The notes under the pieces are model-generated. The model saw only the letters and a list, made by a program, of their open reading frames with translations, did no database searches and was not told where the DNA came from. From a virus, in IMG/VR virus record IMGVR_UViG_3300013006_000121, positions 1-25,189 of that record: a stretch of DNA of 25,189 nucleotides. One strand, 5' to 3'. Shown here in pieces: positions 17,252 to 22,384 of this stretch. The first letter of the stretch is position 1. Each line of letters starts with the position of its first letter. The position numbers were made by a program, and so were the translations under genes.

Positions 17252-17740
17252 ATGCCCAAGAAAGTGAATATGAATAAATTGCATATGCTAATAAAAGAAG
17301 GAGTTACTTACAGTCTTGTTCCTACTATTGGTGGAACTTGTTTGGTTCCATTGTTTTATAAACATATAGCTGAGTTGATGGAAGCAGGACATTGTACTTT
17401 CCATACTTTTGAAGCAGTTACATGCAACACTTCTGCAATTATTGCAGAAATAGATAATAAAATAGTAGGTTTTGATTTCTTTGATCATGATAAAGCAAAA
17501 AGAGTAGCGTTTGATTTTTTTGTTTATGTCGATCCCGATTATAGACGAAGAGGTATATTTACAGAGATAGAAAATTGTCTGTACGTACTATACGCAAAAG
17601 CCAATAATATTAATTATATTAAATCACTTGTATCAATTAACAATGAAACATCTATACAAGCTTCTAAAAAACTAGGTTTTGAGTTGTTTATTTCTGAGCA
17701 CTCGCCTGGATACTATGAATGCATACATTCAACACAATAG
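17252..17740 (+). CDS. GNAT-family acetyltransferase
   Basis: 162 residues from ATG 17252 (alternative ATG 17270, which drops six residues). The core FDFFVYVDPDYRRRGIFTEI contains the acetyl-CoA pyrophosphate loop RRRGIF, and the end SLVSINNETSIQASKKLGFE is the usual GNAT C-terminal pattern. It would transfer an acetyl group from acetyl-CoA to an amine on an unknown protein or small molecule. Expressed from P14; the next feature downstream is the tmRNA. T4-like phages carry various host-modifying transferases, but a target cannot be named here. Confidence 0.85.
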   Translation: MPKKVNMNKLHMLIKEGVTYSLVPTIGGTCLVPLFYKHIAELMEAGHCTFHTFEAVTCNTSAIIAEIDNKIVGFDFFDHDKAKRVAFDFFVYVDPDYRRRGIFTEIENCLYVLYAKANNINYIKSLVSINNETSIQASKKLGFELFISEHSPGYYECIHSTQ

Positions 17741-17754
17741 ATAAACAATTGAAC

Positions 17755-17762
17755 GATAAATA
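17755..17762 (+). promoter_or_regulatory. Possible late-type promoter before tmRNA
   Basis: GATAAATA is one mismatch from the T4 late promoter TATAAATA and would start transcripts near 17768-17775, just before the first bases needed for the acceptor piece. Such an 8-mer also occurs by chance in AT-rich DNA. Confidence 0.3.
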
Positions 17763-17776
17763 AAAATCATGATTAT

Positions 17777-17838
17777 AGTTGTATGAAGTAAATCAAAAAT
17801 GGTTCTGGACAGGGGTGCAAATCCCCTCACCTCCACCA
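17777..17838 (+). ncRNA. ssrA: tmRNA acceptor piece (3' half)
   Basis: T-stem AGGGG (17811-17815) and CCCCT (17823-17827) enclose a seven-base loop TGCAAAT; then CACCTCC, discriminator A17835 and encoded CCA (17836-17838). TGGAC precedes the T-stem as in bacterial tmRNAs. AGTTGT (17777-17782) can pair with ACAACT of the coding piece (18057-18062), followed by ATG with CAT and ATC with GAT, as expected for helix P2 with interior loops. Odd: the loop has G where U55 is usual. The 5' limit is uncertain. Confidence 0.85.
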
Positions 17839-17850
17839 TAAGGAAATTTG

Positions 17851-18048
17851 ATGAAATCAGAAAAAGTAAAACAGTATTTTGTTGTAGTAGACAAAGACGA
17901 TACAATAAAAAGGGTGTGTTGGGCACCTTTACTTTGGGATATTCCTAATATGGGATATCGGTTTACAGGTTTCACAGGATTCAATTGTCGGATTCCAAAG
18001 TTTCTTTATGTTGGGGGTGTACTCAGTATTCGACAGGGCAACAAGTAG
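17851..18048 (+). CDS. Protein gene inside the tmRNA spacer, 65 aa
   Basis: ATG 17851 has AAGGA six bases upstream, which itself starts just after the CCA end of the acceptor piece. The frame reads MKSEKVKQYFVVVDKDDTIK, then CWAPLLWDIPNMGYRF and ends at TAG 18046-18048, so its last twelve codons overlap the 5' end of the tmRNA coding piece. The residues look protein-like (strands, aromatic pairs). If the RNA is processed to tmRNA this message is destroyed, and if it is translated the acceptor-stem bases are read as GGV codons, so the two products would compete. No family recognised; it could also be a chance frame. Confidence 0.5.
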   Translation: MKSEKVKQYFVVVDKDDTIKRVCWAPLLWDIPNMGYRFTGFTGFNCRIPKFLYVGGVLSIRQGNK

Positions 18049-18141
18049 ATGCATGGACAACTCGACATATCTCGTCGTTAACAGTAAAACAAAGTAAACG
18101 CAAACGACTCACAGTTCGCATTAGCAGCCTAAACACTGCTT
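18013..18141 (+). ncRNA. ssrA: tmRNA coding piece (5' half)
   Basis: Starts with GGGGGTG and then the conserved TTCGACAGGG (18029-18038). CGAC (18063-18066) and GTCG (18074-18077) may be part of PK1. GTAAAC precedes the resume codon GCA (18100), keeping the A four bases upstream that tmRNA needs. AGCAG (18123-18127) and CTGCT (18136-18140) form the P5 hairpin whose loop holds the stop codon, as in other tmRNAs. The real 3' end is not known. Confidence 0.85.
18100..18132 (+). other. tmRNA tag reading frame ANDSQFALAA
   Basis: GCA AAC GAC TCA CAG TTC GCA TTA GCA GCC TAA gives ANDSQFALAA. It starts with the usual AND and ends in the LAA sequence read by ClpXP-type proteases. Ten residues match beta/gammaproteobacterial tags better than the longer tags of alphaproteobacteria. 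The exact middle residues (SQF) are not a tag I recall. Confidence 0.9.
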
Positions 18142-18149
18142 AGGGTTTC

Positions 18150-18186
18150 GGTAGGTTTCCTCGTAACAGAATAACCTACCATTTTT
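18150..18186 (+). terminator. Hairpin terminator after tmRNA
   Basis: GGTAGGTT (18150-18157) pairs perfectly with AACCTACC (18173-18180); loop 15 bases; followed by ATTTTT. Part of an exact 45-base duplicate (18142-18186 and 18450-18494). Confidence 0.75.
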
Positions 18187-18219: not shown

Positions 18220-18441
18220 ATGAGTAAAACACCTTTTGAAATCCGTATGAACCTTTTGGAAATGGCAAAGGACTTGGTTATGCAAGACTTTTACATTAAG
18301 AAAGATATGTTAATGGAACAGTGGCACCGTAGTACAGAAATCGATAAATCGCTTCCTGTACCAACACTGGGTGCATATCCAACAGAAACGGATATTATTG
18401 CAAAAGCAAAAGCACTTAATGCTTTCGTTTCTAACGAATAA
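18220..18441 (+). CDS. Conserved T4-like phage protein, 73 aa
   Basis: Strong ribosome site AAGGAG before ATG 18220. Begins MSKTPFEIRMNLLEMAKDLV and continues with helical DFYIKKDMLMEQWHR, then PTETDIIAKAKALNAFVSN; I recognise this as a small protein shared by T4-like phages including cyanophages, of unknown function. It sits between two copies of the hairpin element, so its transcript would be isolated. No early promoter lies just upstream; the source of its transcription is unclear. Confidence 0.75.
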   Translation: MSKTPFEIRMNLLEMAKDLVMQDFYIKKDMLMEQWHRSTEIDKSLPVPTLGAYPTETDIIAKAKALNAFVSNE

Positions 18442-18457
18442 TCATTAAAAGGGTTTC

Positions 18458-18494
18458 GGTAGGTTTCCTCGTAACAGAATAACCTACCATTTTT
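18458..18494 (+). terminator. Hairpin terminator, second copy
   Basis: Identical to the copy at 18150-18186: stem 18458-18465 with 18481-18488, then ATTTTT. Follows the 73-aa gene by 16 bases. Confidence 0.75.
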
Positions 18495-19076: not shown

Positions 19077-19598
19077 ATGCAAAAAGTATTATTCGCGTTT
19101 GCACTAGTATTCGCACTATTTGTACTACAATATAATGCATCACACTATGAACCAACTAAAGTATCATTAAATCTTCCAAGATACGAAGAACTTACTAAAG
19201 ATCAAAAAACAGAAGTTGATTGTCTTACTCAAAACATTTATCGTGAAGCTGGCATCGAACCAGAATCTGGAATGATAGCTGTTGGATTAGTAACAATGAA
19301 TAGAGTTAAAACTGTAGGTTTTCCAGAGACGGTGTGTAAAGTCGTTAAGCAAAAGACAAAGCACGTCTGCCAGTTCTCTTGGACTTGTATTAAGAAACTA
19401 CCACGCATTGATCAACAGATATATAGTTATAGCAGAAGTCTTGCAATCATGATTTTCTTCAATCACCGTATTATCGATGATCCGACATTTGGCGCGTTAT
19501 TTTATCATGCTGATTATGTTCGCCCTCGATGGACTAAGTTTGAAGTCACCACTAAAATTGGAAGACATATTTTTTATAAACCAATCGGAGAAGCGTAA
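19077..19598 (+). CDS. SleB-like cell wall hydrolase with membrane anchor
   Basis: 173 residues. Residues 1-20 (MQKVLFAFALVFALFVLQYN) form an uncleaved signal anchor or signal peptide; the enzyme is thus exported. The domain QNIYREAGIEPESGMIAVGL (catalytic E57), NRVKTVGFPETVCKVVKQK, CQFSWTC, and FYHADYVRPRW is the hydrolase-2 (SleB) fold that cuts peptidoglycan. It differs from the cytoplasmic GH19 enzyme at 13762, so the phage has two wall-degrading enzymes of different location. It may act on entry or lysis. AAGGAG ribosome site. Coupled to the ClpP gene by one-base overlap. Confidence 0.85.
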   Translation: MQKVLFAFALVFALFVLQYNASHYEPTKVSLNLPRYEELTKDQKTEVDCLTQNIYREAGIEPESGMIAVGLVTMNRVKTVGFPETVCKVVKQKTKHVCQFSWTCIKKLPRIDQQIYSYSRSLAIMIFFNHRIIDDPTFGALFYHADYVRPRWTKFEVTTKIGRHIFYKPIGEA

Positions 19599-20251
19599 TG
19601 GACATTTTAGAAATGATGAAGTCAAAAGCACATTCTAATGGATATTTTCCAAGTAAACCTGTTGCTCAAGTTCATGAGTTTTATCTCACTGGAACAATTG
19701 AAGAACCTGAGAATTATTTAGAATGGTTTGACACGATTCGTCATGCCGGAGAACATGATCTCGTTAAGATATACATCAATAGTTATGGTGGTGATCTATT
19801 CACTGCAATACAATTTATGCGTGTTTTAGCAGATACTGAAGCTACAGTCGTGTGTTCCGTTGAAGGTGCGTGTATGTCTGCCGCCACAATGATCTTTATG
19901 TGTGCTGATCAATTTGAAGTAACTCCTCACTCAGTGTTTATGTTTCACAATTATTCAGGTGGAGCTATCGGCAAAGGCGGAGAAATGATCGATCAACTAT
20001 TGCATGAACGCAAGTGGTCCGAGCGTCTTATGAACGAAGTTTACAAAGACTTTATGACAGAAGCCGAGATTAAAGCAATGCTTGAGAATAAAGATATGTG
20101 GATGGACGGTGAAGATGTAGTAGTCCGTATGAATACTAAAATTGCTAGACTTCAACAAGCACTTGAGGAAGTTGCTACTCCTCCAAAGAAACGAGTTGCT
20201 AAAAAACCAGTCGTAAAGAAAACACCGATTAAAAGAAAGCCTGTACAATAA
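19598..20251 (+). CDS. ClpP-like serine protease
   Basis: 217 residues. INSYGGDLFTAI supplies the oxyanion region, EGACMSAATMIF carries S94, FMFHNYSGGAIG H117 and ENKDMW D166: the ClpP Ser-His-Asp triad is complete. A lysine/proline-rich tail (196-217) is added to the usual core. Host ClpP needs ClpX/ClpA; a phage ClpP-like subunit could mix with host ones, act alone, or be a head-maturation protease (no head genes are seen near it). It lies 1.5 kb from a tmRNA whose tag ends in LAA. C terminus PVQ is formed by promoter P15. Confidence 0.85.
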   Translation: MDILEMMKSKAHSNGYFPSKPVAQVHEFYLTGTIEEPENYLEWFDTIRHAGEHDLVKIYINSYGGDLFTAIQFMRVLADTEATVVCSVEGACMSAATMIFMCADQFEVTPHSVFMFHNYSGGAIGKGGEMIDQLLHERKWSERLMNEVYKDFMTEAEIKAMLENKDMWMDGEDVVVRMNTKIARLQQALEEVATPPKKRVAKKPVVKKTPIKRKPVQ

Positions 20252-20270: not shown

Positions 20271-20277
20271 AAATCAT

Positions 20278-20349
20278 CTGGCGTTAGTACAACGGATAGT
20301 ACAGGGGATTTCTACTCCCTAGATGGCGGTTCGATTCCGTCACGCCGGA
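20278..20349 (+). tRNA. tRNA-Arg (UCU)
   Basis: 72 bases. Acceptor CTGGCGT/ACGCCGG (20278-20284 and 20342-20348), D-stem GTAC/GTAC, anticodon stem GGGGA/TCCCT with loop TTTCTAC (anticodon TCT, reads AGA/AGG), variable AGAT, T-stem GGCGG/CCGTC with loop TTCGATT, discriminator A20349. CCA is not encoded (ACCC follows). AGA is rare in many proteobacteria but used in this AT-rich phage. Confidence 0.9.
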
Positions 20350-20379
20350 CCCTTCAGTCAAAGTCAAGACTCGAACTAT

Positions 20380-20405: not shown

Positions 20406-21038
20406 ATGTTCTACACAATTTATAAAATTTCAAACAAGATAGATGGCAAGATATACATTGGATCGCATAAGACCAAAAATCTAGATGACAATTACATGGG
20501 TTCAGGCAAGTATCTTAAGTACGCTCAAGAAAAACATGGTATAGAAAACTTTACCAAAGAAATCTTATTTGTATTTGATACTCCTGAAGAAATGTATCTT
20601 AAAGAAAAAGAATTAGTAAATGAAGAATTCATAGTTACACACAATACATATAACTTAAAAATTGGTGGTTTTGGAGGATTTGATTATATAAACTCAAAGG
20701 GATTTATTAGAAATAGCAGTCATTTTGATGTTAATAACATGCAATCTTCTATAGGTGGTCGCAATTCTTTTTTACAAAATAAAGGAATTCATTCTATAGA
20801 ATCTAAAGAAAAAGCTCAACGTAATATAAAAGAACAATTTCCGCTTGGAACTTTTTACGGTAAGACTCATTCTGAAGATGCTAAAAAATCCATTGGACTA
20901 AAAAATAGTAAACATCAAAGTCAAAATAATAGTCAATTGGGAACAATGTGGATTACAAATGATATTGAAACTATTAAAATAAAAAATACTTCACCTATAC
21001 CTGACGGGTGGAGAAAAGGCAGAAAATTAATTAACTAA
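20406..21038 (+). CDS. GIY-YIG homing endonuclease
   Basis: 210 residues. The core KISNKIDGKIYIGSHKTKNL contains the Y...YIG pair in the modified form seen in T4 Seg-type enzymes, then NYMGSGKYLKYAQEKHG, FTKEILFVFDTPEEM and a Glu (KEKELVNEEF). The long second half has repeated Asn/Ser-rich DNA-contact segments (GKTHSEDAKKSIGLKNSK). It would cut a related genome lacking the gene, spreading itself. It lies right after a tRNA, a usual homing-gene site, and has a late-type promoter. AT-richer than neighbours. Confidence 0.88.
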   Translation: MFYTIYKISNKIDGKIYIGSHKTKNLDDNYMGSGKYLKYAQEKHGIENFTKEILFVFDTPEEMYLKEKELVNEEFIVTHNTYNLKIGGFGGFDYINSKGFIRNSSHFDVNNMQSSIGGRNSFLQNKGIHSIESKEKAQRNIKEQFPLGTFYGKTHSEDAKKSIGLKNSKHQSQNNSQLGTMWITNDIETIKIKNTSPIPDGWRKGRKLIN

Positions 21039-22168: not shown

Positions 22169-22384
22169 ATGTTCAAAGGTGCATCTGCATTTTCTCTTCA
22201 CATTGAAGAGATTGTAAAAAAGTCTAGAGTATCACACATGGACGCTGTCCTAAAATATTGTGCTGATAATTTTCTAGAACCAGACGACATTAAAAGTCTC
22301 GTAAATAAACCACTCAAAGATAAGATTGAACGCGATATGCGTGAAGCTAATCTTCTTCCTAAACAAGCAATGTTGGACGTATAA
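22169..22384 (+). CDS. 33: gp33-like late transcription co-activator
   Basis: 71 residues. Pattern IEEIVKKSRVSHMDAVLKYC, then FLEPDDIKSLVNKPLKDKI and EANLLPKQA follows T4 gp33 C-terminal half (MSYLEATTAFLEENSI...IIEKIQSEAIDENLL) in order and spacing. In T4, gp33 binds the RNA-polymerase beta-flap and the gp45 clamp to activate late promoters with gp55. It is shorter than T4 gp33 (112 residues), which lacks the N-terminal part here. Gene order 33-59-32 agrees with T4. Presence of gp33 predicts TATAAATA promoters, and matches are seen at 18959 and 20380. Confidence 0.75.
   Translation: MFKGASAFSLHIEEIVKKSRVSHMDAVLKYCADNFLEPDDIKSLVNKPLKDKIERDMREANLLPKQAMLDV

Follow-up and report, generated by a model that had tools for sequence, protein, structure and literature searches.

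A complete two-piece tmRNA gene was located in a 25,189-base virus record (the window, which is the whole record and a 25-kb fragment of a phage genome), and its precursor very likely serves also as mRNA for a conserved small protein nested between the two RNA pieces. The gene anatomy, the covariation, the conservation of the tag and the purifying selection on the nested ORF were each established directly from the sequence. Phage two-piece tmRNAs are already known; a conserved small-protein gene as the intervening segment of one seems to be new.

The spacer of two-piece tmRNA genes is usually described as thrown away. In many aquatic-type phages it appears instead to be a conserved small-protein gene and, because the spacer codes for protein, one transcript would be both a messenger and a structured-RNA precursor that is cut across the gene. 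This raises the question of whether translation controls maturation, or the reverse. It also brings to light small, so far unstudied phage proteins that are encoded at one defined site, and one of them is carried by the cultured phage Melnitz.

The two-piece tmRNA gene and its conservation

The window was searched with the Rfam covariance models using cmscan. RF04321 (tmRNA_permuted) gave a full-model match at 17777-18132 (+) with 114.2 bits (gathering threshold 47, E 6e-22), covering both pieces. RF01849 (alpha_tmRNA) matched 17728-18180 with 50.4 bits, at its gathering threshold of 50, the best match of the clan alone being kept. Two close relatives (L002 and L004) scored 127-130 bits with beta_tmRNA (RF01850, gathering threshold 84), the window itself being listed as alpha_tmRNA. 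ARAGORN, run on the window, did not report a tmRNA. The presence of an intact circularly permuted (two-piece) gene is confirmed at the level of sequence, with the features collected in Table 1. GGGGGTG at the start of the coding piece pairs with CACCTCC of the acceptor piece, whose encoded CCA ends at 17838, and the tag is read as GCA AAC GAC TCA CAG TTC GCA TTA GCA GCC TAA, with GCA as the resume codon.

Table 1. Features of the tmRNA locus in window coordinates
Feature	Position	Strand	Details	Basis
Acceptor piece	17777..17838	+	P2 strand, T arm loop TGCAAAT, acceptor 3' strand CACCTCC, ACCA	RF04321, covariation
Intervening segment	17839..18012	+	174 nt; not retained under the two-piece scheme	
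Shine-Dalgarno-like AAGGA	17840..17844	+		sequence; association with long segments
Nested protein-coding ORF	17851..18048	+	65 aa, stop TAG	in-frame homologues, substitution pattern
Coding piece	18013..18180	+	GGGGGTG to 3' tail hairpin; 3' end approximate	model matches, covariation
Tag reading frame	18100..18132	+	ANDSQFALAA, stop TAA	
P5 hairpin surrounding stop codon	18123..18140	+	strands 18123-18127/18136-18140	covariation
3' tail hairpin of coding piece	18150..18180	+	strands 18150-18157/18173-18180	conservation in relatives
73-aa ORF between tail copies	18220-18441			
Second exact 45-bp copy of tail	18450..18494	+	first copy 18142-18186	sequence

IMG/VR was scanned with a T-arm pattern and the coding-piece tail, which yielded at least 126 distinct complete permuted tmRNA genes, and the tail-sharing subset of 88 distinct phage relatives was aligned with the intervening segment left out. 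Pairing was found in 93-100% of the 88 relatives for the 7-bp acceptor stem (88/88), the T stem, P2 in both its parts and the 3' tail hairpin; for the acceptor and T stems these pairing figures are not evidence and only the changes are, because full pairing of the 7-bp acceptor stem and of the T stem was demanded when the set was collected. Compensatory changes were found at many pairs, in most of these elements (n = 88). The G3-U70 pair (18015/17832) is invariant in the 88 relatives, and P5 covaries, the pair 18126/18137 being AU in 60, UA in 7, CG in 7 and GC in 2. Related tags were found in more than 100 loci; they differ in sequence, mostly end in ALAA, are in frame in nearly all loci and show synonymous changes. 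ANDSQFALAA itself has the form of a proteolysis tag with an alanine resume codon and a hydrophobic end.

The initial annotation, made from the letters of the window, had proposed a phage-encoded permuted tmRNA, and this is borne out by the covariance search that it suggested, by covariation, by tag conservation and by the T4-like neighbours of the gene. Its reading of the CCA-bearing 3' half ahead of the coding piece (17777-17838 precedes 18013), of a seven-base acceptor stem with G3-U70, of a P5 hairpin around the stop codon and of the tag ANDSQFALAA agrees with the conservation described above, and no one-piece 3' half was found 3' of 18141. The piece ends that it gave at 17777/17838 and 18013 were retained; its end at 18141 is too early, the coding piece running to ∼18180 with the tail hairpin. 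The anatomy thus stood save for this 3' end, and the protein ORF in the intervening segment had been overlooked.

The window derives from a T4-like, Kyanoviridae-related phage, with genes for PhoH, gp32, RNA ligase and a Clp-like protease around the tmRNA. By gp32 the nearest isolates are Melnitz (52% identity) and Pelagibacter phage Mosig (50%), and a BLASTN comparison of the locus with 50,697 phage records returned no match at E 1e-5. The T loop TGCRAAT, in which G replaces U at position 55 (window 17808-17838), is common in these phage tmRNAs, being present in 45/126 distinct genes among the matches listed and in 41/60 tail-bearing loci where it was read. Neither the T arm with the TGCAAAT loop nor the exact 3' tail was matched exactly in the genomes of 84,980 cellular species, near matches being possible. 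Because T arm and tail lack an exact cellular match, the RNA is suggested to belong to a phage lineage rather than to be a recent copy from a sequenced host.

Protein genes in the intervening segment

The intervening segment starts TAAGGAAATTTGATG, with AAGGA one nucleotide past the CCA and the ATG of the nested ORF at 17851. The ORF has 54 conserved codons, which end exactly with the segment, and 11 further codons that belong to the coding piece. When IMG/VR was searched with the peptide, blind to tmRNA, this found 8 loci with the nested protein, all 8 of them directly behind an acceptor-piece CCA; two of the 8 are contigs already in the collected tmRNA set. The RF04321 match spans the nested ORF in four loci (L371, L373, L374 and L375). 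The family sits in three tmRNA backbones: that of the window, that of L371 and L372 (T arm and acceptor stem both different, tag ANDELYSIAA) and a third combination in L373 and L374 (tag ANDSAYRLAA). Between the window and L371 the nested ORF has dS 0.36 and dN 0.06 (Fisher p 6e-4), with 3, 4 and 10 changes at codon positions 1, 2 and 3. The closest members of the family (L371, L373 and L374) differ by few changes, mostly nonsynonymous, and the selection signal of the family comes from comparisons with the window. Judged by this substitution pattern, the nested ORF of the window is under purifying selection and is a protein gene.

Unrelated small genes fill the intervening segment in other phage tmRNAs, Melnitz included. 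For a sample of 126 tmRNAs among the matches listed, chosen without regard to ORFs, 11 of the 14 segments of ≥125 nt were filled by an ORF whose start lies 5-17 nt past the CCA (over 200 shuffling runs, 0.3 on average and never more than 2). Segments of 50-90 nt showed no ORF excess (8/76 against 9.5 expected), and in many relatives the segment is short and has no ORF. From the filling of 11/14 long segments and the chance level in short ones, about a tenth of these phage tmRNA genes would carry a nested protein gene. AAGGA occurs within the first 12 nt of 7/14 long and 3/112 short segments.

The gene of the KLKELQE family (28 loci) is found either within the segment or just ahead of the tmRNA. 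Synonymous sites in this family are almost saturated, with dN 0.07-0.23, and an indel is a multiple of three (3 nt); between L376 and L381, 27/28 synonymous and 13/113 nonsynonymous sites are changed. In L380, L381/L382 and L403 the gene lies immediately 5' of the acceptor piece, outside the segment, and because of this upstream position its linkage to the tmRNA may reflect more than the room that the segment offers. The MKYKIVVK pair (L159 and L272) encodes a common protein (dN 0.25, dS saturated), and L315 and L331 share another nested protein. The 284-nt segment of L157 encodes a PF03692 domain (CxxCxxCC), above the Pfam cut-off; the L157 contig also has >25 tRNA genes in 14 kb beside its tmRNA.

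In the cultured phage Melnitz (L410, MZ577097.1 45300-47300) an ORF starting MFKWLSKTRLVVITRDYF... with the Shine-Dalgarno site GGAG lies inside the intervening segment of the annotated SsrA gene. This ORF is absent from the GenBank annotation, and no mention of it was found in the accessible text of PMC9004378. Its family comprises 18 IMG/VR loci, 10/10 of those scanned lying within Rfam tmRNA matches, and Melnitz and L425 differ with dS 2.0 and dN 0.25. No homologues of the nested ORFs of the window, the KLKELQE family, L209 or L310 were found in the 50,697 phage records. AlphaFold2 predicted a small beta fold for the window ORF (pLDDT 67) and a two-helix hairpin for the KLKELQE family (pLDDT 80), both too weak for assigning function.

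Proposed working and alternatives

We infer processing, charging, tagging and the use of host SmpB for the RNA, and translation and a role for the nested ORF, as follows. One precursor would be transcribed, from which tRNA-processing enzymes would free the acceptor piece with its CCA end and the coding piece starting at G18013; going by what is established for tmRNAs, the pieces would be released by RNase P and 3' trimming in the host. The freed pieces would pair through the acceptor stem and P2, and recognition of G3-U70 by alanyl-tRNA synthetase would lead to charging with alanine. The charged RNA would then associate with SmpB of the host, bind to ribosomes that have stalled on broken mRNA and add ANDSQFALAA for proteolysis. 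A search of 28 phage records (the 25-kb window fragment and 27 related records, several of 165-223 kb) found no SmpB, so that host SmpB is presumably used. Ribosomes would load at the AAGGA beside the CCA and translate the nested protein from the precursor, before or instead of its maturation. The nested stop lies inside the segment in the KLKELQE family, the MKYKIVVK pair, L209, L310 and others, and there the excised segment could be a complete mRNA. The frame enters the coding piece in the family of the window and in most Melnitz-family members, where RNase P cleavage would leave a stop-less message.

The nested gene probably encodes a small accessory protein and is lodged in a segment whose sequence can vary freely. 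A point against the proposal as a whole is that the window ORF has no stop in the segment and that its last 11 codons are tmRNA sequence. In the stop-less frames the segment ends on a codon boundary (after 54 codons in the window family, and after 41 or 49 in most of the Melnitz family), which allows a coupling of translation and maturation: ribosomes crossing the RNase P site at 18012/18013 would delay maturation, the stop-less product would itself be a substrate for trans-translation, and the phage would in this way gauge ribosome-rescue capacity. We consider such coupling unlikely, and a regulatory function of the stop-less message would be a guess.

That the locus is an ordinary phage two-piece tmRNA, with an open frame that arose by chance or is conserved only as RNA, would fit the chance level of ORFs in segments of 50-90 nt and the many relatives whose short segments have none. 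We regard it as very improbable in view of the large excess of synonymous over nonsynonymous changes in several independent families, the 3-nt indels, the Pfam domain in the L157 segment, the initial AAGGA tied to long segments and the 11/14 filled segments against 0.3 expected. The chance that the phage RNA, instead of being an active tmRNA, serves chiefly as a decoy for trans-translation in the host or as its inhibitor is slimmer again: a tag-less form from mycobacteriophage DS6A is said to inhibit E. coli tmRNA (cited in the accessible text of PMC11915505), but the loci studied here conserve the frame of the tag as well as its degradation-type end, and a decoy would need neither. Slimmest of all is the chance of a decaying or non-functional copy invaded by small genes. 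Phages gain and lose genes, duplications of the tail occur and an earlier reading made without tools was compatible with decay; against this, all helices are intact with compensatory changes, G3-U70 does not vary and the tags are in frame in nearly all loci. A complete tmRNA with a precursor that also encodes a small protein remains the preferred reading.

Related systems and neighbouring features

The novelty that the initial annotation implied for a two-piece phage tmRNA does not hold, such an RNA having been published in 2022 for the OM43 (Methylophilales) phage Melnitz (PMC9004378). According to the accessible text of that paper, two-piece forms make up 53 of 133 unique tmRNA structures of isolates, and permuted tmRNAs occur in 17/47 Melnitz-like contigs. 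Melnitz and Mosig (MZ577097.1 and MT647606.1; PMC9004378, accessible text) resemble the window as Kyanoviridae phages with a permuted tmRNA, and Melnitz shares the ORF with a Shine-Dalgarno site in the intervening segment, although the nested proteins differ. In Melnitz and its relatives an alpha-type tmRNA is followed by a glutamine riboswitch, whereas close relatives of the window score as beta-type and Rfam cmscan detected no riboswitch in the window.

Bacterial two-piece tmRNAs (RF04321/RF01850) likewise have this piece order, the tRNA-like domain, G3-U70, the tag, P5 and the 3' tail hairpin; the window differs in a segment that codes for protein and in a TGCAAAT arm and tail without an exact cellular match. 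The accessible text of PMC11915505 describes a tRNA gene and a repetitive element in the intervening sequences of two non-phage genes, and a protein gene in such a sequence was not found there. In the permuted tmRNA of a nominally archaeal MAG (same text), a tRNA-Ala gene lies inside the discarded segment, which is a second gene as here, but an RNA gene in one MAG compared with protein genes of several families in many phages. The intron-form tmRNAs of that text, with homing endonuclease genes in group I introns, also combine a protein gene with a tmRNA gene; the window has no intron or endonuclease there, and the site is the spacer between the permuted pieces. No description of a protein gene in the intervening segment of a permuted tmRNA was found in the openly searchable literature, and the arrangement seems to be new.

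Of 17 related records, 14 have one copy of the tail, one (L195) has three and two have none. The arrangement seen in the window, with two exact tail copies flanking the 73-aa ORF, recurs with homologous ORFs in L176 (4072/4374), with another tmRNA backbone, and in L195 with its three tail copies; these recurrences come with different tmRNA backbones or downstream genes. An integron- or att-like cassette was rejected, the tail being single-copy in nearly all phages and no integrase being seen. The 73-aa ORF had no homologues in the 50,697 phage records, and a relationship to the late-transcription coactivator of Melnitz was dismissed as no similarity was found. A likely gp33 homologue was picked out by eye at 22169-22384.

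A ClpP-like protease gene (19598-20251) lies 1.4 kb downstream of the tmRNA, the tag of which ends in ALAA. A tmRNA-ClpP partnership was discarded, since a ClpP-like motif occurs within 4.5 kb in 4/77 loci and the linkage is not conserved. A tRNA-Arg(TCT) gene (20277-20352) is directly followed by an ORF (20406-21038) that by eye is GIY-YIG homing endonuclease-like. Upstream of the acceptor piece, the late-promoter-like sequence GATAAATA was noted as a pattern at 17755-17762.
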